From Thermoflexibacter ruber (GTDB lineage Bacteria; Bacteroidota; Bacteroidia; Cytophagales; Thermoflexibacteraceae): a DNA stretch of 55,037 nt. The DNA lies in NCBI RefSeq assembly GCF_900113045.1, contig NZ_FONY01000036.1:1-55037 (forward strand), in the 5' to 3' direction. The position numbers were made by a program, and so were the translations under genes. The notes under the pieces were generated by a model. It did no database searches and was not told the origin of the DNA. It was given only the letters and a program-made list of their open reading frames with translations. Shown here in pieces: positions 316 to 46,932 of this stretch; within the stretch, counting starts at the first letter, position 1; every line of letters starts with the position of its first letter.

Positions 316-362
316 GTATATTATTGTTTTTTCTGTGTTTTTTCTATTTACATTACTATATG

Positions 363-389
363 AAGGTGTTATTAAGCACTTTCAGCTAA
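363..389. repeat. Short hairpin repeat, copy 1
   Basis: A GTGTTATTAAGCAC hairpin followed by TTTCAGCTAA. A related copy, GTGTAGTAAACAC then TTTTAGCTAA, lies at 46217-46242, and the stem is kept by G-T for A-T exchange. Two copies only, so a repeat family is a tentative reading. Confidence 0.3.
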
Positions 390-456
390 CTCGGTTACTA
401 TTTGGGTTAAAAGTAAATAGAGAAGCAAGCTAAAACTTTATGAGGCTTCGTAAATA

Positions 457-1953
457 ATGTCAAAATCAAGCATAAGAAGTAAAGTAATTAGTAGCCTTTT
501 TTGGACTACGGGAGCTACTTTAATCAATGTATTTTCTCAAATAGCCTACACGTCTATTATGGGGCGTCTGTTAGACCCGTCTGCTTATGGATTAATGGCT
601 ATGGGAGATATTGTCCTAAGGTTTGTAAGCTATTTTTCAGGTATGGGATTATCCCAAGCCTTAGTACAAAAAGCAAATATGACTACAGAGGACATTCGTG
701 CAGCCTTTACTTCAAGTATCATGCTTGGTTTGTTTTTGTACTCACTCTTTTGGATTCTATCTCCTTTTTCTATTTACATTTTTCCTGTCGAAGAATTAGT
801 GCCTGTTATTCGTACTATGGCTTTATCTTTTGTGATAAGCAGTCTGTTCCTTACTGCCAATGCTTTACTCCGAAAAGAGCTAAAATTCAATATTACAGCC
901 AAAATTACTGTTATATCTGGCTTAATAGCTTCTTTTGGCATAGGATTACCATTAGCTTATCTCGGCTATGGTGTATGGAGTCTGGTTGTTTCTTCTCTTG
1001 CCCAAAGTATGATTTCTGGAGTTTGGGCATACTTGATAGTAAGGCACGATATAAGGCTAAGTTTTATTTGGAAGAATTATAAGCCTTTATTAGGTTTTGG
1101 TTTAAAAATAAGCATCAATAGTTTCTTAATTTTTTTAAGCTATAATTTAAATACAGTTCTTATTGGTAATCTATTGGGTAGTAAAGCATTAGGCTATTAC
1201 AACCGAGCTTCCTATATGGCTCAACTTCCTATCCAATATTTTACTCAAAGTATTTCACAAGTACTTTTTCCCGCAATGAGCAAGCTACAGCATGATACTG
1301 AAAAACTGAGAAAAGCGTATCTCACCTCAAGCGGGTATTTAGCCTTTGCTATTATTCCTACATGCGTAGGCATGAGTATTGCTGGAGAACCACTTATATT
1401 AGTATTTTTAGGGACCCGGTGGGAACCAAGCGTTCCTATTTTTCAAGTATTGGCGTTTGCCCCTATTTTTAACTTTTTGGCTATCTTTGGCAACTCAAGT
1501 CTTGATGCTACTAATCGCGTAGGGTTAAAAATCAAAATTACTCTTATTCATATTGCTATTATGCTCATCGGGATTGGTAGTTTTTATAGACTGGGTTCTA
1601 TCGGATTGGCTTTTGCAATAGTTATAGCTGATTTTGTTAAATACGTCATACTACTTTTTATTACTAAGAAGTATTTGCAATATACTACTCGCCAATGGTT
1701 TGAAACTTACCTACCTGCTTTTATTAATCTTTTATATCTTACACCCATTTTTCTGCTAATTCGCTTTTTTACAAATTATTGGGATATTGCGCATCTGATT
1801 TCTTTGATATTGTTTATATTTGCTGGGGGACTATGTATCCTTTTAGGATTTCTCAGCTCGCCACGAGTGTTAATCATTTTGGAAATAAAGAATCTCATAA
1901 GACCCATTGCTGGTAAGCCAGGTTTGGGTATGCTTAAATTTTTAATTAAATAA
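457..1953 (+). CDS. Polysaccharide flippase, MOP/Wzx-type
   Basis: A 498-residue, almost wholly hydrophobic protein with roughly 12 to 14 predicted membrane helices, the usual size of the RfbX/Wzx/TuaB branch of the MOP exporter superfamily. The N terminus (RSKVISSLFWTTGATLINVFSQIAYT) and the following GRLLDPSAYGLMAMG stretch match the family's first helices, where 'LxPxxyGlva' is typical. Such proteins flip undecaprenyl-linked oligosaccharide repeat units across the inner membrane. It opens a plus-strand run of five glycan genes ending at 6073, with only 26 bp to the next gene, so co-transcription is likely. No polymerase (Wzy) or chain-length regulator is visible, so the rest of the locus probably lies to the left beyond the transposase. 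Confidence 0.88.
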   Translation: MSKSSIRSKVISSLFWTTGATLINVFSQIAYTSIMGRLLDPSAYGLMAMGDIVLRFVSYFSGMGLSQALVQKANMTTEDIRAAFTSSIMLGLFLYSLFWILSPFSIYIFPVEELVPVIRTMALSFVISSLFLTANALLRKELKFNITAKITVISGLIASFGIGLPLAYLGYGVWSLVVSSLAQSMISGVWAYLIVRHDIRLSFIWKNYKPLLGFGLKISINSFLIFLSYNLNTVLIGNLLGSKALGYYNRASYMAQLPIQYFTQSISQVLFPAMSKLQHDTEKLRKAYLTSSGYLAFAIIPTCVGMSIAGEPLILVFLGTRWEPSVPIFQVLAFAPIFNFLAIFGNSSLDATNRVGLKIKITLIHIAIMLIGIGSFYRLGSIGLAFAIVIADFVKYVILLFITKKYLQYTTRQWFETYLPAFINLLYLTPIFLLIRFFTNYWDIAHLISLILFIFAGGLCILLGFLSSPRVLIILEIKNLIRPIAGKPGLGMLKFLIK

Positions 1954-6166: not shown

Positions 6167-8134
6167 ATGAGAAAGTTTCTTTTTTTTATCCTGATTTGCC
6201 TAATCCTTATTGCTGGTTTCCTCTATTTCACTAAGCAGTTAGGCTATACAAGACTGATTTACTTTATTCCCAAAGATGCCATTTATATTTTAGAAACTGA
6301 CGAGCCTATCAAAACTTGGGAAAAGCTAAGCAGTAGTGCCGTCTGGAAGCATCTGCAATCCCAAGCTACTTTTGCCGAGCTTACTAAAAGTGCCAATTCC
6401 TTAGACTCGCTCATCAAGCAAAACAAAGAAATTTTTGACCTTTTGGGCAGTCGCAAAGTGATGGTTTCCGCACATCTATACAAAGCCAAAGACTATGATT
6501 TTCTCTTTGTGGCAGACCTTCAGCATGCCGCCGTGCTAACTTTCTTAGAAAACTACTTGGGTGCTTTACCCATGCAGCAGTACAAGTACAGCAGGCGCAC
6601 ACTCAGCAAATTTACTATTCACGAACTCCAAGACAAAGCAAGCAAAGAAACTTTACATCTGGCTTTTGTCAATAACGCACTGATTGGCAGTTGGAAAGCA
6701 AAGTTAGTGGAAGATGCCCTCACACAATTTGAATCACCTGAAATAGGGAAGAATCCTCATTTTACTGCCATTAGCGAAAAAGTGAGTGAGAGAGGTATAT
6801 TTCGGCTGTATTTGCAATATGCGTATTTAGACGAGTTTATGCGTTGCTACATGGAAGAAGACAATGAGTACGTCCAAGACCTTAGCGAAACTATTTTATA
6901 TACGGGTTTGGACTGTAACGTCATAGAGGACAGCCTTATCCAAATGAAAGGTTATACCAATATTAATGATTCCGTAGCCTCATACTTGCAAGCACTCGCC
7001 CAAGCAGGGAAGGGACGCTTTTCTGCTTTTAATGTTATTCCTCAGCGGAGTGCTTTTAGCATGAGTTTGGGGTTTTCGGATTTTTCCAAATTCTTTCAAC
7101 AATGGAAAGAAGTGTATCAAAAAGACAATCCTGAAAAGTGGGCAGAATACGAAGCTGATATTTTAAAAGTAGAAAGTTTTTTAAAAATCAGTTTGGAAAA
7201 AAACTTTTTTTCTTGGATTGGAGAAGAAATATGCTTTGTGCAAACGCAACCCAAAGGTTTGGGTAGGGACAGTGAAATAGCCGTAATTATCACCGCCCAA
7301 GATATTGGAGAAGCCAAAGGCAATCTGGACTTTATCAGCGAGCAGATTCGCAAGCGTTCCCCAGTCAAGTTTAGAGAGGTAGAATACGGAGGCTTTACGA
7401 TTAAGTACATGGCAGTCAAGGGTTTCTTTCGTTTATTCTTAGGCAAATTCTTTGAAAAATTAGAAAAACCCTATTATACCATCATTGGCGAGCATGTTAT
7501 CTTTAGCAATCACCCCCAAACACTTAAAGACATCATCAATGACTATAATGAGCGAAAAACATTAGCCAAATCAGAACGTTTTGATAGATTTTTTGAGGAG
7601 TTCTCCTCAGCTGGCAGTATTTTTATTTATTGCCAAACGCCTGTTTTACAGCAAACTATCAGACCTTTGCTACAACCTACCACTTGGCAAGCTATGCAAA
7701 CCAATCGCAATTATATTCAGTGTTTTGACCAGATAGGCTTCCAACTCATCGGTAATGGGCAAATCTTTGAAACTAATTTACTTTCTACTTTCACTAATCC
7801 TGTCCTTTATCCTGAATATTTTGCAAAATTTTATGAAAGGAATATACAAGTCGTTGATAGTTTGATAGATATAGAAGCCCCCTTAGAAATTATATTAAGC
7901 GATTTGGACATAAAAAAATATACTGAGAAGTATGCTAACGGCAAGATAAAAGTAGAGGCAGAGATAAAAAATGGATTAAAGCATGGCACTTATAAAGAAT
8001 ACTACCCCAATGGAGAAATAAAAATCAAAGGAGAATACTATAAAGACCTACAAGATGGGACTTGGCGATACTATGACGAGAAGGGAAAACTCACCAAAAA
8101 ACGTAGATTCAAGCGGGGGCAGGAACTGTTTTAG
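6167..8134 (+). CDS. DUF3352-like membrane-anchored protein with C-terminal MORN-type repeats
   Basis: 655 residues. A single N-terminal hydrophobic helix (residues about 3-22) acts as signal anchor. The large middle part begins FIPKDAIYILETDEPIKTWE and resembles the DUF3352 family of exported proteins of unknown function. The last about 65 residues hold MORN_2/YwqK-type repeats: YANGKIKVEAEIKNGLKHG, 'YKEYYPNGEIKIKGEY' and DGTWRYYDEKGKL. Such repeats are beta-hairpins found in many Bacteroidota surface or antitoxin-like proteins. The combination is odd and no enzymatic motif was found. It starts 93 bp after the polysaccharide block and may not belong to it. Confidence 0.6.
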   Translation: MRKFLFFILICLILIAGFLYFTKQLGYTRLIYFIPKDAIYILETDEPIKTWEKLSSSAVWKHLQSQATFAELTKSANSLDSLIKQNKEIFDLLGSRKVMVSAHLYKAKDYDFLFVADLQHAAVLTFLENYLGALPMQQYKYSRRTLSKFTIHELQDKASKETLHLAFVNNALIGSWKAKLVEDALTQFESPEIGKNPHFTAISEKVSERGIFRLYLQYAYLDEFMRCYMEEDNEYVQDLSETILYTGLDCNVIEDSLIQMKGYTNINDSVASYLQALAQAGKGRFSAFNVIPQRSAFSMSLGFSDFSKFFQQWKEVYQKDNPEKWAEYEADILKVESFLKISLEKNFFSWIGEEICFVQTQPKGLGRDSEIAVIITAQDIGEAKGNLDFISEQIRKRSPVKFREVEYGGFTIKYMAVKGFFRLFLGKFFEKLEKPYYTIIGEHVIFSNHPQTLKDIINDYNERKTLAKSERFDRFFEEFSSAGSIFIYCQTPVLQQTIRPLLQPTTWQAMQTNRNYIQCFDQIGFQLIGNGQIFETNLLSTFTNPVLYPEYFAKFYERNIQVVDSLIDIEAPLEIILSDLDIKKYTEKYANGKIKVEAEIKNGLKHGTYKEYYPNGEIKIKGEYYKDLQDGTWRYYDEKGKLTKKRRFKRGQELF

Positions 8135-8160
8135 ATACAAACTTTTCCCACAAAACAAAA

Positions 8161-8192
8161 TTGTAAATCATGCAGTTACTTTGCTATCTTTG
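8161..8192 (+). promoter_or_regulatory. Candidate promoter for gcvP (TTG...TATCTTTG)
   Basis: TATCTTTG at 8185-8192 matches the Bacteroidota -7 consensus TAnnTTTG; TTG at 8161-8163 lies 21 bp upstream in -33 position. Transcription would start near 8199, giving a leader of about 120 nt before gcvP. Confidence 0.6.
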
Positions 8193-8318
8193 CAGAAAAT
8201 TTGAAAAATGCAACTTGGTGCCGCATGGCTTGTTGCTTGTGCTGAGTTGCAAGCAATAAACAAATAACAAAGAATCATAAACCATAAACAAGGAACAATA
8301 AGCGAGAAAGATAAATCA
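8193..8318 (+). promoter_or_regulatory. gcvP leader with two competing hairpins
   Basis: Two perfect 7-bp stems cannot both form: TGCAACT (8209-8215) with AGTTGCA (8245-8251), and TTGCTTG (8233-8239) with CAAGCAA (8250-8256), because they share 8250-8251. The rest up to the start codon is A-rich and unstructured. No resemblance to the glycine riboswitch was recognised and there is no U-tract, so any control would more likely be on stability or translation. Confidence 0.35.
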
Positions 8319-11219
8319 ATGAAAATCAACGTAAACAACACTGAAAAATTTGAAAACCGCCACATCAGTGCAGATGAGGCACAAATCGATGCAATGCTAC
8401 GTACTGTTCAAGCCAATTCTATTGATGAACTCATCGAGCAGACTATACCAGCAAATATTCGTTTAAGCAAATCCCTGAACCTGCCATCAGCACAAGGGGA
8501 ATACGAATTTTTGAAAAACTTTAAGGCTTTGGCACAGAAAAATAAGGTTTTCAAATCGTACATAGGTTTGGGCTATCACCCTTGTATTACACCTCCTGTG
8601 ATTTTGAGAAATATCTTGGAAAACCCAGGGTGGTACACCGCTTATACGCCTTACCAAGCAGAAATTTCTCAGGGAAGGCTGGAGGCAGTTATCAATTTCC
8701 AAACCATGATTATAGATTTGACACAAATGGAAATTGCTAATGCTTCCTTGCTGGACGAAGCAACTGCCGCCGCAGAGGCAATGCACCTACTTTTGGCAGT
8801 AAAGAGCAAAGCAAAGAAAGATGCCAACCAATTTTTTGTTTCAAATCGTTGTTTACCTCAGACTATTGATTTACTTCGTACTCGTACTGCTCCGTTAGGA
8901 GTAGAGTTAGTTGTTGGCGACCACTTGACCATAGATATTACTAATCCTAATTTGTTTGGTGTATTGTTGCAATATCCTGCCAAAGATGGGGAAGTAATTG
9001 ATTATACAAATTTTATAGAGGCAGCGCATGAGCATGAGGTAAAAGTAGTGGTGGCTGCTGACTTGCTTTCTTTGACAGTTTTAAAAGCTCCAGGCGAAAT
9101 GGGGGCAGATGTAGTGGTAGGTTCGGCACAGCGTTTTGGCGTGCCTATGGGCTATGGAGGACCTCATGCAGCATTTTTTGCCACCAAAGATGAGTTCAAA
9201 AGACAAATGCCGGGTCGCATCATTGGGCTTTCCAAAGATGCACAAGGCAACAATGCCTACCGCATGGCTTTGCAAACCAGAGAGCAGCACATTCGCAGGG
9301 AAAAAGCTACTTCCAATATTTGCACGGCTCAGGTGCTTTTGGCTGTTATGGCAGGAGCGTATGCAGTTTATCATGGAGCAGAAGGCTTAAAGAAAATTGG
9401 GGAAAGAGTCTATGGAATGACGCAATTATTAGAAAAAGGGCTTAAAATTTTAGGATTCAAAACAAAAAATACCACTTATTTTGATACTTTAACTATTGAA
9501 GTAGAAAATAAAGAAGTCCAACAGAAAGTCCAAAAATTAGCCCTTTCCCAAGAAATTAACTTCCTTTATGAAGGAGAGAAATACATTGGTATTTCGTTAA
9601 ATGAAACTACTACTATAGTAGATGTAAGCCAAATTTTGGCAATTTTTGCATTAGCTATGCAAAAAACTATTGCTTTTGATGTTGATGAATTAGCAGAAAA
9701 TATTGAAAACTTGATTCCTGAAAACTTGCAGAGAAAAACGCCTTATCTTACTCACCCTGTTTTCAATACGCATCATTCCGAACACGAAATGCTCCGCTAC
9801 CTCAAATACTTAGAAAATAAGGACATTTCTTTGGTTCATTCTATGATTTCTTTGGGTTCTTGCACCATGAAGCTAAACGCCACCACGGAGATGATTCCCG
9901 TAACTTGGGCAGAGTTTGGCAATTTGCACCCTTTTGCACCTAAGGAACAAGCTCTCGGCTATCAAGAATTATTTACTAACTTAGAAAAATGGTTAAGTGA
10001 AATTACTGGCTTTGCAGGGGTTTCTTTACAGCCTAATTCAGGGGCGCAGGGTGAGTATGCAGGGCTTATGGTCATTCGTGCCTATCACCTGGCAAACGGC
10101 AATGGGCATAGAAATATTGCCTTAATTCCTTCCTCAGCACACGGTACGAATCCTGCAAGTGCGGTCATGGCAGGTATGAAAGTCGTAGTAGTGAGATGTG
10201 ATGAAAATGGCAATGTGGATTTAGATGATTTGAAAGCAAAGGCAATAGCACACAAAGACGATTTGGCTTGCCTCATGGTTACTTACCCTTCTACGCATGG
10301 GGTTTTTGAGGAAGCTATCACCGAAATTTGCCAACTAATCCATGAAAATGGAGGCTTGGTCTATATGGACGGTGCAAACATGAATGCCCAAGTGGGATTG
10401 ACAAGCCCAGCCAATATTGGGGCTGACGTGTGCCACCTAAACTTACACAAAACTTTTTGTATTCCTCATGGTGGCGGGGGACCTGGCATGGGACCTATTG
10501 GCGTAGTGGAAAAGTTAGTTCCTTTCTTGCCCAAGCACCCCTTAGTAGAAGTAGGAGGAAGTCAAGGAATTACGCCAGTGAGTGCTGCTCCTTATGGCAG
10601 TGCAAGTATCCTTGCTATTTCCTATGCTTATATTGCGATGATGGGGGCGGAAGGGCTTACTAATGCGACTAAAATGGCGATTCTCAATGCTAACTATATC
10701 AAAGATAGATTAAAAGAGCATTATCCTATTTTGTATGTAGGGAAAAATGGACGTTGCGCCCATGAGATGATAGTCGACTGCCGCCAATTTAAGCAAAGTG
10801 CAGGTATAGAAGTGGAAGATATTGCCAAGCGACTAATGGATTACGGCTTTCATGCCCCTACAGTTTCCTTCCCCGTAGCAGGGACACTGATGATAGAACC
10901 TACTGAAAGCGAAACCAAAGAGGAACTTGACCGCTTCTGCGATGCGATGATTCAGATTCGTGAGGAAATCAGAGAAATAGAGCAAGGCATTTACGACAAA
11001 AACAACAACGTTCTCAAACACGCCCCACATACTCAAAATGTAGTGATTGCAGATACTTGGGACAGACCCTATAGCCGAGAAAAAGCGGCATATCCTCTTC
11101 CTTGCTTGCGTCGCAATAAGGTCTGGGCAACAGTAAGCCGCATAGACGGAGCTTATGGAGATAGAAATTTGGTTTGCTCTTGCGCCCCGATAGAGGAATA
11201 TGAAGCTATCAATGCCTAA
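8319..11219 (+). CDS. gcvP: Glycine dehydrogenase (aminomethyl-transferring), P protein
   Basis: 966 residues, the full length of the fused (homodimeric-type) P protein of the glycine cleavage system. It decarboxylates glycine with pyridoxal phosphate and passes the aminomethyl group to lipoylated GcvH, ultimately giving NH3, CO2 and methylene-tetrahydrofolate. The N-terminal half begins '[16 protein letters not shown]' and contains [21 protein letters not shown]; the C-terminal half carries the PLP lysine in [18 protein letters not shown] (Lys711), [15 protein letters not shown] and [11 protein letters not shown]. gcvT and gcvH are not adjacent, a common arrangement in Bacteroidota. The ATG at 8319 follows a 120-nt leader. 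Confidence 0.97.
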
Positions 11220-42076: not shown

Positions 42077-44332
42077 TTAAAAAATCGCATACCTCACCCC
42101 TACAAAAGCCCTCATTCCTTGCATAGGTGCGTAAATATAGGTAGGGTCAAAAGTATAACCGTTTGGGTTGCTCACAGGGTCATTCGCCGTTTTGTCAAAA
42201 GGGTCAAATGCCCGCAAAATTACATCGCCTTTAGGCATAAAATTGAGCAAGTTTTTCACCCCTCCATAGATTTGCAAGCCATTCCCAAAAGTTTTGGTAA
42301 GTTGCAGGTTTTGGATACTATACCAAGGCGATTTTTCTGGACGATAATCATTAGGCACTACAGGCAGGTGCATGGGGCTAAAAAAATTCCCTGTCCAATC
42401 CAAAGTAATTTGTGGTTTCCTCAATGTATAACTTAGGGCAAAAGTACCTGAAAATGGAGAAGTTTGGATTTGAGGAAGTTTGACTAAGCTACCTGTACCA
42501 TCGTCTTCTTTCTGATACACGTCCATTAGAGTAACGCCTGCATTGATTTTTAGAGGGAAACGAAAAGAAAAATCAGTATTCAACGCAAGCCCTTTGGAAA
42601 CTGCATGACCCCGCAAGTTCTCATAAATAATTTTGTCAGGGTCGGTAAAATAATCCGCAATGATTCTATTAGTAAAATAAGTATAAAATCCACTCACATC
42701 TACGTCAAACTCCCCGATTTCCGTATGTATGTGCTTTTGATAATTGGCATTGATATTCCAAGAACGCTCAGGTTGTAATGCTTCTCGGATTTCGACCCTT
42801 CTTGCCCCTGTGAGTGCGGCGTGGTCTTCGGTAAACAGATTCACTACCCTAAATCCATTTCCATAACTTACTCTCAATGTGTTATTTTCATTCATAGACC
42901 ATTGGTAGTTGGCTCTTGGCGACCATACATTGCCATGCACGGGGTGCTTGTCATAGCGCAATCCTAACAATAGTTTTTGCTTTTTGAATAAACGAATTTC
43001 ATCTTGGGCAAAAATGCCAAACAAAGTAGTTTTATTAGGTTGATTTTCTGTATTTTCTTTGGCAGTGGCAGGCGTATTGTCATCATAATGAGTATATCGC
43101 AAAGTCGAGCCAAGTAGCAAGTCGTGCTTGCCAATTTTTTTATCCCAAAGCAATTGTGCAAAACTTATTTTTTGGTCAGCCAAATAGCTCGTAGTGCCAT
43201 ATTGGGAATCTTGGATATGGCTATTGAAAGAATAATTGAGTACAATTTTTTCTTTGTCAAACGGTAGTTGGTAATTTCCTATCAGTTCAAAACGCTTTGT
43301 AAAAATACTTTCTCCATAAATAGAATCTGTCCCTCTAAACTTTCGCTCCCAAGAGGTTTGCCCGCCCCAACGGTCTTCGTACATATATCGCCAAGCAAGG
43401 TTCATCAAGCGACTATTTTTTCTTTCCACACTCCATTTATTAAAAATAGAAATGCGATTTTGCAAAGTTACATCGGTAAATCCATCACCATTTTTATCCG
43501 ATATTTGATTAAAATTGAAGTAGTTAGCACTAATAAGAGATTGAGTCTTGTTGATGCTGAATTTCCCTGCTAAGTCGAGATTGTACTCCCCGTAGCCTGT
43601 TCCAAAGGCATCTAAGGAGAACTGAGGGGCTTTAGTGGGAGATTTGGTGATGATATTTATCAGTCCTGCGACTGCCTCTGAGCCATACAAAGTCGAGGCG
43701 GGACCTTTGACTACCTCTATGCGTTCTATGATGCTGTTAGGGATTCCACTCAACCCATAAACCGTTGATAAAGCACTGACTATGGGCATTCCGTCTATCA
43801 ATACCATCGTATAAGCACCCGGCATGCCATTTATCCAAATATCTCCCGCATTACACACATTACAGCTCATTTGTGGACGCACTCCATTGACTATTTGCAA
43901 AGCATCAAAAAGGCATTGGGTAGGGTTTTTTTTGAAAAAATGAGGGGTAAAAACCTCTACATGCACAGGACTTTGAATGATAAAACTTTCTTTCATCGTC
44001 CCTGTAACTACTACTGCTTGTAATTCTGACAAATCTTCTTCTAAGTTAGCATTGAGCGTAGCGATTTTATCCTTATTTACACTGACGCTTACTTTAAACG
44101 GTTTAAAACCTACTCCAGAAAATTGGATTTGGTAAGTCCCCCAAGGAACATTTTTAAGCCAATAATTTCCCAAAGAATCTGAAATAGTGCCTAAGTTGGT
44201 ATTGAGCAAGGCAATATTGATAAACGGTAGTGGCTTCCCTTCTGAAATCACCTTCCCTTTGATGCTTCCCTGAGCAAATGATAATACACTAACAAACAAT
44301 AGGATAGTAATAATACATATAATTTTTCCCAT
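42077..44332 (-). CDS. TonB-dependent receptor, probable metal or metal-complex importer
   Basis: 751 residues. Signal peptide (about 1-20, FAQ), a carboxypeptidase-regulatory-like domain (SIKGKVISEGKPLPFINI, about 22-100), plug (about 105-230) and a 22-strand barrel ending VGVRYAIF. The plug contains an unusual CNVCNAGD motif (Cys157-x2-Cys160) and 'WINGMPGAYTMVLIDGMPI', then GPASTLYGSEAVAGLINIITK. The CxxC could bind a thiophilic ion such as Zn or Cu, or form a disulfide. It lies directly downstream of an AztD-like lipoprotein gene but with its own -7 element (TAGTTTTG, 44363-44370 minus) and a terminator between, so it can be expressed separately. Substrate is inferred from the neighbour, not proven. 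Confidence 0.85.
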   Translation of the reverse strand: MGKIICIITILLFVSVLSFAQGSIKGKVISEGKPLPFINIALLNTNLGTISDSLGNYWLKNVPWGTYQIQFSGVGFKPFKVSVSVNKDKIATLNANLEEDLSELQAVVVTGTMKESFIIQSPVHVEVFTPHFFKKNPTQCLFDALQIVNGVRPQMSCNVCNAGDIWINGMPGAYTMVLIDGMPIVSALSTVYGLSGIPNSIIERIEVVKGPASTLYGSEAVAGLINIITKSPTKAPQFSLDAFGTGYGEYNLDLAGKFSINKTQSLISANYFNFNQISDKNGDGFTDVTLQNRISIFNKWSVERKNSRLMNLAWRYMYEDRWGGQTSWERKFRGTDSIYGESIFTKRFELIGNYQLPFDKEKIVLNYSFNSHIQDSQYGTTSYLADQKISFAQLLWDKKIGKHDLLLGSTLRYTHYDDNTPATAKENTENQPNKTTLFGIFAQDEIRLFKKQKLLLGLRYDKHPVHGNVWSPRANYQWSMNENNTLRVSYGNGFRVVNLFTEDHAALTGARRVEIREALQPERSWNINANYQKHIHTEIGEFDVDVSGFYTYFTNRIIADYFTDPDKIIYENLRGHAVSKGLALNTDFSFRFPLKINAGVTLMDVYQKEDDGTGSLVKLPQIQTSPFSGTFALSYTLRKPQITLDWTGNFFSPMHLPVVPNDYRPEKSPWYSIQNLQLTKTFGNGLQIYGGVKNLLNFMPKGDVILRAFDPFDKTANDPVSNPNGYTFDPTYIYAPMQGMRAFVGVRYAIF

Positions 44333-44399
44333 ATTTTAAGCAATTCTTGATTAATGTTTATACAAAACTAAATAACTATATTTATTTTTTAAAATAAAA

Positions 44400-44415
44400 T
44401 TTAGTTTAGTCTAAA
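44400..44415 (-). promoter_or_regulatory. DtxR/MntR-like operator candidate upstream of the TonB receptor
   Basis: TTTAGTTTAGTCTAAA has TTTAG/CTAAA half sites and matches the DtxR/MntR-type consensus TTTAGGTTAGCCTAAA at 14 of 16 positions. It lies 30 bp upstream of the receptor's -7 element (44363-44370), which has no recognisable -33 box. AT richness makes a chance match possible. Confidence 0.4.
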
Positions 44416-44498
44416 ATATTTTTTTACTATATGCAAAAAGACTTTGTATAATTAAAAGTTCCGCAGGAATGACCTTTTTTGTTAAAATCAAAACAAAA

Positions 44499-44526
44499 AG
44501 CAGAAAACCCATTGAGATTTTCTGCT
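44499..44526 (-). terminator. Terminator after the AztD-like gene
   Basis: AGCAGAAAA (44499-44507) and TTTTCTGCT (44518-44526) form a perfect 9-bp stem with a 10-nt loop. On the minus strand it is followed by TTTTGTTTTG. Confidence 0.75.
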
Positions 44527-44566
44527 GATTTTTTTAAGTTTTCAATAAGATAAGATTCTGCATCAA

Positions 44567-45766
44567 TTAATCATCATGCCCTTTGCTTGTTTCCATACCC
44601 AATACAGTCAAGCGGTAAGGAGTGCCACTGACCTTGATTTTAGTAATATTACTTGGATTAGCTACTTCTACTTGTACAATTTCGCCAGACTTGGGCTGTG
44701 TAATGTATATATACTTTTTAGTAGCTACAAGCTGTGGTTTTTGAGTTTCTGTACGCTCAACTTTGCTGATTACGTTAGCTTTTACTTTTAATGCCCCTGT
44801 TTGCAGATTGTAAATACTTACTTCGCCACTATGCAATAATACTATTAAATTTTCTCCTGAGAAGTCGGTCTTGCACTGCATAATATCCGTATTTTCTATA
44901 ATTGGTGTTATCTTCTCTGTGGTAATATCAATTAGATAAGCCCCTTTAGCAGAAGTGTAACCTACAAACTTTCCTGTACCTTTGGCTTCTAAAATAGTTC
45001 CAAACCAAGCTGTACCAAAGTCAGCAGGATGGCTAATAAGTTTCTGATTACCATTTGGACTTACGACCAAAATACCGCTTGCTGAGCCAAAAGCAGCAGT
45101 TTTTCCGTCTGTTGCGTTTCCGTGAATACCCTTGGTTTGGACAGTAGAGGCAAAAATAGTTTTCCCACTAATGTCTATAATTTTTACTCTCTCGGGAAGC
45201 GTGCCAGCTATAGAGCCATCTTTTTCTGTGATTGCATAGTTGCCATTGTCAAACTTCGCCATGGCACCGTGATGTGCGACATTTCCTGCATTGATTCTTT
45301 TCATTCTCGAGCCAACCACATGAAAATTATTTTCATTAGCAATGTCAAGCGTACCGTCCCCGTCATTAAAAATAGCAATTTCACTTCCATAAGTTTTAAA
45401 GTGAGTAGGCATTTTACCATCACCCACTATCGCTCCAAACTTGGGGGTTCCTTTTACATCTGCATGGTCGCCATGATTTTCAAAGCCCACGTCAAATGTT
45501 TCTACCATATTGTCTGCTCGATGTACTAATACCGCCCAACGACCTGACTGAGTGGTGTAAATTGTAGATTTAGCGAAATTTGCTTCAAAGTTCTGGGTAG
45601 TGCCACTACGAGGATTCACTAAGGAAATTTGTTTGGTGTTTTCATCACTCACTAATACCCTGATGAATTTATATTCCTTGTTGTCATCAGGTCCGATGTC
45701 ATTGTTTTTTGAGCAAGCAGTCAAAAAAGCTATAAAGACAAGTGCATAAAGTAGTTTTTTTAACAT
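44567..45766 (-). CDS. AztD-like metal-binding beta-propeller lipoprotein
   Basis: About 399 residues from ATG 45766, chosen because it starts a lipoprotein signal ending FLTAC (Cys18). The mature protein reads as a repeated beta-propeller with landmarks of AztD-type zinc chaperones: FENHGDHADV (His cluster), 'MPTHFKTYGSEIAIFNDGDGTL', AHHGAMAKFDNGNYAI, GIHGNATDG and WFGTILEAKGTGKFVGY. In known systems AztD hands zinc to an AztABC transporter; here the neighbour is a TonB-dependent receptor, so it may be an outer-membrane partner feeding or sensing metal. Its promoter is overlapped by two palindromes typical of Fur/Zur-type control. The His-rich C terminus (KGHDD) is minor. Assignment is by eye. 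Confidence 0.7.
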   Translation of the reverse strand: MLKKLLYALVFIAFLTACSKNNDIGPDDNKEYKFIRVLVSDENTKQISLVNPRSGTTQNFEANFAKSTIYTTQSGRWAVLVHRADNMVETFDVGFENHGDHADVKGTPKFGAIVGDGKMPTHFKTYGSEIAIFNDGDGTLDIANENNFHVVGSRMKRINAGNVAHHGAMAKFDNGNYAITEKDGSIAGTLPERVKIIDISGKTIFASTVQTKGIHGNATDGKTAAFGSASGILVVSPNGNQKLISHPADFGTAWFGTILEAKGTGKFVGYTSAKGAYLIDITTEKITPIIENTDIMQCKTDFSGENLIVLLHSGEVSIYNLQTGALKVKANVISKVERTETQKPQLVATKKYIYITQPKSGEIVQVEVANPSNITKIKVSGTPYRLTVLGMETSKGHDD

Positions 45767-45792
45767 AACATTTAAGAGATTAAAATAAAAAA

Positions 45793-45838
45793 TGCAACAA
45801 TGTTGCAAATTTATAACAATACGCAACATTGTTGCAAA
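45793..45838 (-). promoter_or_regulatory. Promoter with double palindromic operator (Zur/Fur-like)
   Basis: Minus-strand promoter: TTTG (45835-45838), 21-bp spacer, TAAATTTG (45806-45813). The 15-bp palindrome TGCAACAATGTTGCA (45793-45807) overlaps the -7 box and start site; a second, GCAACATTGTTGC (45823-45835), touches the -33 box. The centres are 29 bp apart and the core is the same on opposite strands. Such placement fits repression by a dimeric metalloregulator, Zur being the natural candidate given the gene controlled. Confidence 0.7.
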
Positions 45839-46007
45839 TATTAAATGTTAAAAAATTTAGATTTTTTATGTTTTTAATCAATAGACTTACTACTACTTAA
45901 AAATCAAGTATTTACAAAATTATTAGAGTTTTTACTCTCTGATTTTCAATAGACTACTTTTCCAATCATACATGGTTCATTCATCTAAATTGCTACTGAC
46001 TATTTAT

Positions 46008-46284: not shown

Positions 46285-46932
46285 ATGATTCAAGTACACT
46301 ATTTTACCTTCAACGCTTTTAGTGAAAATACTTATATTTTAGCAGACCATACCAAAGAATGTGTCATCATAGACCCAGGCTGCTTTGCTGAGAGAGAAAA
46401 AAATAGCTTGAAAAAGTTTATTGAGGAAAAAGACCTGAAAGTAAAACTATTGCTCAATACGCATTGCCACATAGACCATGTGCTTGGTAATCAATTTATT
46501 AAAAATACCTATAAAGTACCACTGTGGATTCATGCCTTAGAGGAAGCCCCTCTGCGTTCAGTGCAGGTGTACGCACCTATCTATGGTATGCCAGAGTATG
46601 AGCCAGCCGAGCCAGACCATTTTATCAGCGAAAAGGACGCAATTTATTTTGGGGAATCTTCTTTGCAAGTCTTGTTTGTGCCTGGACATTCTATAGGGCA
46701 TTTGGCTTTTTACAGTGCGAAAGATAAGTTCTGTATTAATGGAGATGTACTTTTCAATGGGAGTATCGGAAGAACCGACCTGCCCGGTGGGAATTATAAT
46801 ATATTGATGAATAGCATTTTTAATACGATGTATGCACTTCCGGACGATACTGTAGTCTATTGTGGGCATGGCGACCCTACCACTATTGGCAAAGAAAAAA
46901 AATTTAATCCATTTTGTGCGATAGAAGTCTGA
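46285..46932 (+). CDS. MBL-fold metallo-hydrolase (glyoxalase II-like)
   Basis: 215 residues of the metallo-beta-lactamase fold. Metal ligands are visible in order: NTHCHIDHVLGN (His60, His62, Asp64, His65), FVPGHSIGH, FCINGDVLFNGSIGRTDLPGG (bridging Asp) and YCGHGDPTTIG (last His). The sequence resembles the GloB-related 'MBL fold hydrolase' group of Bacteroidota, which hydrolyse thioesters or similar bonds; the true substrate is unknown. Cytoplasmic, no signal peptide. It precedes hisD by 205 bp, so co-transcription is uncertain. Confidence 0.88.
   Translation: MIQVHYFTFNAFSENTYILADHTKECVIIDPGCFAEREKNSLKKFIEEKDLKVKLLLNTHCHIDHVLGNQFIKNTYKVPLWIHALEEAPLRSVQVYAPIYGMPEYEPAEPDHFISEKDAIYFGESSLQVLFVPGHSIGHLAFYSAKDKFCINGDVLFNGSIGRTDLPGGNYNILMNSIFNTMYALPDDTVVYCGHGDPTTIGKEKKFNPFCAIEV

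Follow-up and report, generated by a model that had tools for sequence, protein, structure and literature searches.

Tandem palindromes on the promoter of an AztD-like gene of Thermoflexibacter ruber as probable Zur-type operators

In Paracoccus denitrificans the aztD gene is under Zur control, and nearly half of the known AztD proteins are encoded beside aztABC or another cluster A-I ABC importer (both from the available part of PMC6689063). Enzymes of the GliT type form the disulfide bonds of natural products that chelate zinc in their reduced state (PMC10500201 and PMC11317636, in the parts available), and the Pseudomonas aeruginosa enzyme DnoP is induced by zinc starvation through signalling that the same part of PMC11317636 states to be unresolved. 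For Bacteroidota, a search of the literature outside RegPrecise and most subscription papers found no described Zur box or operator, and none is described in the available parts of PMC2770081, PMC6103462, PMC9976891, PMC10957091, PMC6613475, PMC11960050, PMC12574912, PMC4219657, PMC10500201, PMC6689063 and PMC11317636. The letters of the motif reported below, used as a literature query, matched only unrelated eukaryote papers.

The stretch of DNA analysed here (the window) comprises 55,037 nucleotides from Thermoflexibacter ruber (assembly GCF_900113045.1, contig NZ_FONY01000036.1, positions 1-55,037, forward strand; GTDB lineage Bacteroidota; Bacteroidia; Cytophagales; Thermoflexibacteraceae). 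Two palindromes, recorded without a strand, lie upstream of an AztD-like gene. The gene-proximal one (45793-45807) reads exactly TGCAACAATGTTGCA, and the distal one (45822-45836, CGCAACATTGTTGCA), 29 bp away, has one mismatch to TGCAACANTGTTGCA; the 13-mer GCAACATTGTTGC picked out by an earlier sequence-only reading of the window corresponds to 45823-45835. Both palindromes claimed by that reading exist, but the word it gave as TGCAAC-N3-GTTGCA is better written as a 15-bp, 7-1-7 inverted repeat, TGCAACA-N-TGTTGCA. The promoter elements of Bacteroidota are TTTG at -33 and TAnnTTTG at -7. The minus strand of the window carries a sequence match to both, TTTG-N21-TAAATTTG, in which a 21 bp spacer separates the -33 box TTTG (45835-45838) from the -7 box TAAATTTG (45806-45813). 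This is the sole minus-strand match to TTTG-N17..23-TAnnTTTG within 44300-45900, with 8 matches in the whole window, and the minus strand upstream of the AztD-like gene can be written as TTTGCAACAATGTTGCG-TATTGTTA-TAAATTTGCAACATTGTTGCA. The palindromes are laid over this promoter as had been proposed, each sharing exactly 2 bp with its promoter box: the proximal one spans the end of the -7 box and the predicted transcription start, and the distal one overlaps the -33 box. The likely start codon of the gene is the ATG at 45766-45764, which gives a lipobox LTAC, rather than the start of the longer frame opening at 45829.

Both palindromes also score as terminator-like on the minus strand, and TTTTTTATTT follows the proximal one, features that would suit RNA hairpins acting as an attenuator or terminator in the leader. 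This explanation is very improbable. The distal box covers the -33 element and so precedes the expected transcription start, which would leave it out of any transcript from this promoter; moreover the position of the box is tied to the promoter boxes, and single-box promoters often have the box at or upstream of a TAnnTTTG-like element.

The tie between box and promoter was examined across 106 loci, which contained 40 distinct tandem pairs with boxes within 80 bp of each other and only 14 pairs 200-1400 bp apart. The tandem spacing was 36-40 bp in 29 of the 40 pairs and 28-31 bp in 5, the other 6 having other distances. Orientation was possible for 27 of the 34 pairs in the two spacing classes, the 7 pairs lacking a clear orientation being dropped; it was set by hand after the flanks had been printed, and the zinc-cluster side was taken for five divergent sites. 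TAnnTTTG runs into the gene-side box, with TG common to both, in 23 of the 27 oriented pairs, and the mirror arrangement occurs in 1; leaving out the five divergent sites gave 18 of 22 pairs and 1 of 22, respectively. When single boxes were counted as well, giving 101 site-gene pairs, TAnnTT stood before the box in 22 and on the other flank in 7; the strong TAnnTTTG signal lies in the tandem pairs. In the 28-31 bp class the -33 box can be supplied by the left TTTG of the distal box, with a spacer of 20-23, and in the 36-40 bp class by its right TTG, with a spacer of 17-21. These two possible -33 positions are 11 bp apart by sequence arithmetic, and we infer that both serve as -33 boxes. The pair in the window belongs to the rarer 28-31 bp class, as do the pairs on contig C46 of the source genome and at a Bernardetia locus (L129). 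The conserved promoter overlay with its two spacing classes is new here.

The word is not scattered at random over the genome, a pattern that the sequence-only reading had named as counting against its motif. With the reversed word as the control for motif counts, the exact word was found 3 times in the 5.497-Mb source genome and the reversed word 0 times. Markov models of order 1-3, built from 155 kb of the source genome, predicted 0.02-0.05 exact copies in 5.497 Mb, far fewer than were observed. For one-mismatch sites the count by itself shows no excess (3 observed, 1.1-2.1 expected), but all three of these sites sit 29 bp from another such box; at three mismatches the window held no excess (3 seen, 4.17 expected). 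A dispersed palindromic repeat or a chance duplication might also give two near-identical palindromes 29 bp apart, and is the least credible of the explanations considered, given just 3 exact copies in 5.5 Mb, flanks that differ among the copies and a box that is kept before AztD-like genes across genera. A looser word, GYAAYANTRTTRC, was found at 10 places in the source genome and its control at 4; three extra places of the looser word, used as controls, had no zinc-set gene. A two-mismatch site (C17:812) within a broken-looking coding stretch was dropped.

The exact word was found in 7 of 13 genomes of the family (among them G010, 62% complete, and G001, 89% complete) and the reversed word in none of the 13. 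A relaxed word gave 25 sites (control, 7) in the six family genomes with no exact site, and 63 (control, 10) in all 13. In the order the exact word occurred in 150 of 390 genomes (reversed word, 2), in the class in 58 of 395 (reversed word, none seen) and in the phylum sample in 12 of 296, five of these outside the class (reversed word, 1); these three samples overlap, and their control counts were read off tables by eye. The exact word is rare outside the class.

All six sites in the source genome, 3 exact and 3 with one mismatch, precede genes. Two are at the AztD-like gene. One precedes a MerT/MerC-like gene, behind which a His-rich lipoprotein is encoded; another two, 29 bp apart, precede the gene of a 189-aa lipoprotein. 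The sixth, on contig C118, has a Fur-family gene on one side and an FAD oxidoreductase gene on the other. At locus L020, positions 7661-9231 encode a MerT/MerC-like protein, a His-rich lipoprotein (HDEEHHHHHEGDAHDHDHSREHE) and a 189-aa lipoprotein; a single box stands upstream of the MerT/MerC-like gene, and a tandem pair upstream of the gene for the 189-aa protein. When the surroundings of every exact site in the family were read, all 16 preceded plausible metal genes: AztD-like (4 sites in 3 genomes), COG0523 (4 sites in 4 genomes, in one case following a small CFFCGGAG protein), MerC-like (2 sites, one common to a divergent His-rich lipoprotein gene), MerT-like with a His-rich lipoprotein (3 sites), and a TonB receptor, FolE, and a Fur gene with an oxidase (1 site each). 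The COG0523 genes of the family were assigned by reading, the one scanned copy, from G011, scoring 578.6 bits against the model of the zinc metallochaperone GTPase ZigA (cut-off 600); MerC (two scanned) and FolE exceed their curated cut-offs. Pfam gives no family for the CFFCGGAG protein, for which DUF3299 had served as a working label only, and PF02492 has two matches in the source genome, in frames of 251 and 1038 aa. In genome G012 an exact box (7264-7278 of locus L049) lies about 55 bp before the FolE (GTP cyclohydrolase I) gene (6547-7209, minus strand). ABC-2 type transporter genes stand behind box-led MerC-like, AztD-like or COG0523 genes at four loci (L039, 4036-7965; L040, 9726-12329; L044, 8352-11193; L048, 2871-6470), and the one scanned was a DUF3526 permease.

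The enrichment before zinc-related genes that had been predicted was thus borne out for COG0523, AztD-like, MerC/MerT-like, TonB receptor, FolE and Fur-family genes, the gene types covered by the test. It was scored on 59 loci, the first 30 matches from the order and 29 new ones from the class among the matches listed, with a zinc reference gene set built from the targets of the source family itself. In 41 of these 59 listed loci a zinc-set gene began no more than 450 bp from the box and was directed away from it; the figure was 32 of the 59 when TonB receptors and ABC proteins were excluded. Among 25 control loci (13 stretches of the source genome and 12 classical-Fur loci), 2 held a zinc-set gene, one of them the Fur gene by which the locus had been chosen; the scoring was unequal, control loci being credited for a gene anywhere in the locus. 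Of the 18 of 59 listed loci that missed the strict 450-bp rule, eight (L071, L078, L146, L148, L153, L154, L166 and L170) have a zinc-set gene at a greater distance, beyond another gene or excluded by the rule itself. At L153 and L154 the box faces a lipoprotein gene and the receptor lies beyond the box, and L151, L152, L155 and L156 adjoin lipoproteins resembling these. The exact boxes of L151-L156 stand beside lipoprotein genes in other families of the class; the two proteins scanned (L151, L153) are DUF4625, and the group are candidate new zinc lipoproteins. No recognisable metal gene was seen in 6 of the 59 listed loci (L072, L077, L091, L096, L149 and L172), and the site at L149 falls inside a frame that we take to be FeoB-like.

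AztD-like genes were also sought by protein rather than by motif in named genomes, giving 22 loci from Cytophagales MAGs, Emticicia, Rhabdobacter, Arundinibacter, Bernardetia, Runella, Algoriphagus, Arcicella, a Sphingobacteriales MAG, Pedobacter, Dyadobacter, Flavobacterium, Pontibacter and Larkinella; two of these, L124 and L125, duplicate the G002 and G003 loci. In 12 of the 22, the 500 bp upstream contained a box with no more than one mismatch, compared with 0.002 in random sequences of the same make-up. The box heads a gene run that includes the AztD-like gene at L133, L138, L140 and L145 and also, about 3 kb upstream of that gene, at L139; just a two-mismatch box was seen near the start at L132, and no such box in the upstream DNA examined at L134, L135, L141 and L142. 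In two Flavobacterium loci (L138, L145) the arrangement runs Fur-like gene, box, MerC-like, COG0523, lipoprotein of the 189-aa type, AztD-like and TonB receptor, with a second box before the lipoprotein gene. A similar Flavobacterium cluster has a one-mismatch box (L139), and another is the same apart from having no recognised COG0523 gene (L140). The Fur-like proteins of Flavobacterium are 38-43% identical to the C80 or C118 Fur-family protein of the source genome, two of them falling below the Pfam FUR cut-off when the matched stretch alone was scanned. This cluster, new here, ties the box to a Fur-like gene.

The AztD-like gene occupies 44567-45766 of the minus strand. It had been read as encoding a probable zinc-binding lipoprotein of AztD type, a description that fits its ligands and predicted fold but not the curated family: the NCBIfam AztD model was matched with an E-value of 3.2e-26 and 91.9 bits, below the cut-off of 400, and the protein is for this reason named AztD-like. 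Among the zinc ligands His99, His102, His123, His167 and His216 are kept in 23 of 23 sequences, Asp104 in 22 of 23, and His398 in 22 of 23 with one gap; the motif HGDHAD is at residues 99-104, matching P. denitrificans numbering. As judged from these residues, both AztD zinc sites are kept. The predicted model (pLDDT 90.1, pTM 0.86) gave nine AztD chains as its nine best matches, with TM scores of 0.78-0.86 and 18-22% identity. The AztD disulfide Cys214-Cys231 is absent, the only cysteines being at 19 and 299.

A terminator-like hairpin of 12 pairs (44499-44526, minus strand, a consensus match only) follows the AztD-like gene and separates it from the next gene on the strand, encoding a TonB-dependent receptor (42077-44332, minus strand), across a gap of 234 bp. 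The receptor gene probably shares function with the AztD-like gene, and six Flavobacterium loci have the same AztD-receptor order (44-46% identity). Lower in the list of matches to the predicted model is a Bacteroides B12 receptor complex with a surface lipoprotein (8bmx, TM 0.44), which weakly suggests a lipoprotein lid on the TonB receptor. No aztABC or other cluster A-I ABC importer adjoins the gene; its immediate neighbours encode the TonB receptor and an MBL-fold hydrolase. The hydrolase gene (46285-46932, plus strand) is divergent from the AztD-like gene and starts about 450 bp from the distal box, and its GloB-like score is below the cut-off.

The source genome contains three Fur-family genes, encoding a classical Fur (contig C23), a 142-aa protein (contig C80, locus L022, 5187-5615, minus strand) and a 126-aa protein (contig C118). 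Five genomes with boxes before zinc genes (G001, G002, G003, G010, G011) have only the classical-Fur and C80 types, which makes the C80 type the best candidate; G010 and G011 each have a third FUR hit above the Pfam cut-off, but these hits read like what are presumably BlaI/MecI-type proteins and were set aside. The C80 protein belongs to the Fur family (PF01475, 47.2 bits, cut-off 23.1). Among solved structures it matches Escherichia coli Zur best (E 1.7e-6), with 9ire, a Fur, and 2o03, the Zur named FurB, coming next, and its best NCBIfam model is also Zur, at 38.7 bits, far below the cut-off of 167. The site A ligands of E. coli Zur, Cys103, 106, 143 and 146, correspond to Cys101, 104, 137 and 140, which are invariant in 13 of 13 aligned relatives. 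The site B residues His77, Cys88 and His96 have counterparts in the C80 protein, with no assignment for that of Glu111; by eye, the His77 counterpart is kept in 12 of the 13 relatives and the Cys88 counterpart in 11. The 142-aa protein is most likely the repressor. Counting against it, its own gene lacks a box near the start, as do all but 2 of the 15 non-classical Fur genes read in the family, and six of the 13 family genomes have a C80-type gene and no exact box. The box-led C118 gene may encode an accessory regulator. At L121 (G012, contig C28) a one-mismatch box, TGCATCATTGTTGCA, precedes a second non-classical Fur gene, which suggests self-control of that gene.

The boxes could instead belong to classical Fur, or to a Fur-family protein sensing iron, manganese, peroxide or haem. 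To our knowledge similar dimeric palindromes are bound by all members of the Fur family, and each of the 13 family genomes encodes a classical Fur. The C118 protein scored best with Irr models, in every case far under the cut-off, and PerR and Fur gave weak scores for the Fur-like proteins of Flavobacterium. We nevertheless regard this as improbable. The targets point to zinc, namely the ZigA-type COG0523, the AztD-like protein with intact zinc sites and FolE, and the recognised targets include no siderophore, haem or peroxide genes, with one site in the presumed FeoB-like frame. The dithiol oxidase type found among the targets also has a P. aeruginosa relative induced by zinc starvation (available part of PMC11317636). 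A zinc-responsive regulator from outside the Fur family is less probable still. There is no box near the start of the C80 gene, as would suit such a regulator, but Fur-family genes adjoin the box in 7 of the 59 loci (among the matches listed), at C118 and in the Flavobacterium clusters, and the 7-1-7 symmetry is one reported form of Zur boxes (PMC6103462, in the part available).

An FAD oxidoreductase gene stands beside the box in 9 of the 59 loci among the matches listed (L067-L071, L085, L093, L094 and L168) and on contig C118 (L019). On C118 the oxidase gene (334-1338, minus strand) is divergent from the Fur-family gene (1441-1821, plus strand), and L094 has a similar divergent pair. The motif CPYCHGYE is invariant in the 10 aligned oxidases. 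The closest solved relatives are 3fbs, DepH, 4fk1, 4ntd (which we take to be HlmI) and GliT, with E-values of 3e-55 to 3e-40, the next thioredoxin reductase being 3cty at 1e-19. By this similarity the enzymes are classed as DepH/GliT-type dithiol oxidases, and their place beside the box is a further new lead. A predicted zinc-type operator directly at their genes fits a zinc-controlled defence against zinc-chelating dithiols, which is possible. The oxidase of the C118 contig (6058 bp) shares 80% identity with the one in genome G362, which belongs to a different family, and the contig may be acquired DNA or a contaminant.

The same word precedes zinc genes in many relatives and neighbours Fur-family genes, so the proposal that it is the Zur motif of this lineage is very probably right, the box being the site of a zinc-sensing repressor. 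We are confident, short of certainty, that the two palindromes of the window are tandem Zur-type operators at which a zinc-responsive Fur-family repressor, most likely the C80 protein, occludes the promoter of zinc-capture genes. With zinc present as co-repressor, one dimer would bind directly to each box, so that the -33 and -7 elements are covered and RNA polymerase is blocked from starting. Once zinc is exhausted the repressor would release the boxes, and the AztD-like zinc-binding lipoprotein, probably together with the TonB receptor encoded downstream, would be made and capture zinc.

More tentatively, and with somewhat less than even confidence, we propose that Bacteroidota have a zinc-control code of their own. 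Its 7-1-7 Zur box would reuse the promoter TTTG, placing two dimers exactly on the -33 and -7 elements, with one of two spacings that differ by about 11 bp, or one helical turn. The regulon would include an AztD-like propeller lipoprotein that serves a TonB receptor, not an ABC importer, as its surface lid or feeder, and a DepH/GliT-type dithiol oxidase that protects the cell from zinc-stripping dithiol toxins at zinc shortage. Bacteroidota are a major phylum of gut, soil and water, and the 15-bp word with its strict promoter layout leads to a testable list of zinc targets, with MerC/MerT-like proteins and uncharacterised lipoproteins among them. In addition, it provides a concrete path by which zinc starvation may be linked to bacterial dithiol oxidases, a link left open for P. 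aeruginosa in the available part of PMC11317636.

Compared with the Zur boxes and regulons of other phyla, as far as these are covered by the available part of PMC6103462, the system described here shares the 7-1-7 palindrome, the position of the box near the promoter and the targets COG0523, TonB receptors, FolE-type and uptake genes. It differs in its letters, TGCAACA-N-TGTTGCA, in the tandem boxes on -33 and -7 in two fixed spacings, and in the addition of AztD-like lipoproteins with TonB receptors, MerC/MerT-like proteins and dithiol oxidases to the targets. The C80 protein shares with E. coli Zur (PDB 4mtd; PMC4219657, part available) the four site A cysteines and, as far as aligned, appears to have counterparts of His77, Cys88 and His96, while its overall similarity is low (E 1.7e-6) and the operator letters differ. 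The AztD-like protein resembles AztD of Paracoccus and Citrobacter (PDB 6ck1, 6cmk, 6n01; PMC6689063, part available) in its predicted beta-propeller and in keeping the zinc ligands of both sites, whereas it is a lipoprotein encoded beside a TonB receptor, with no adjoining ABC importer and no conserved disulfide. Finally, the oxidases resemble DnoP of P. aeruginosa, a member of the DepH group, in being DepH-like enzymes with a CxxC motif and a link to zinc starvation; what sets them apart from DnoP, as presented in the available part of PMC11317636, is the predicted zinc-type operator directly at the gene and, at L094 and C118, the divergent Fur-family gene.
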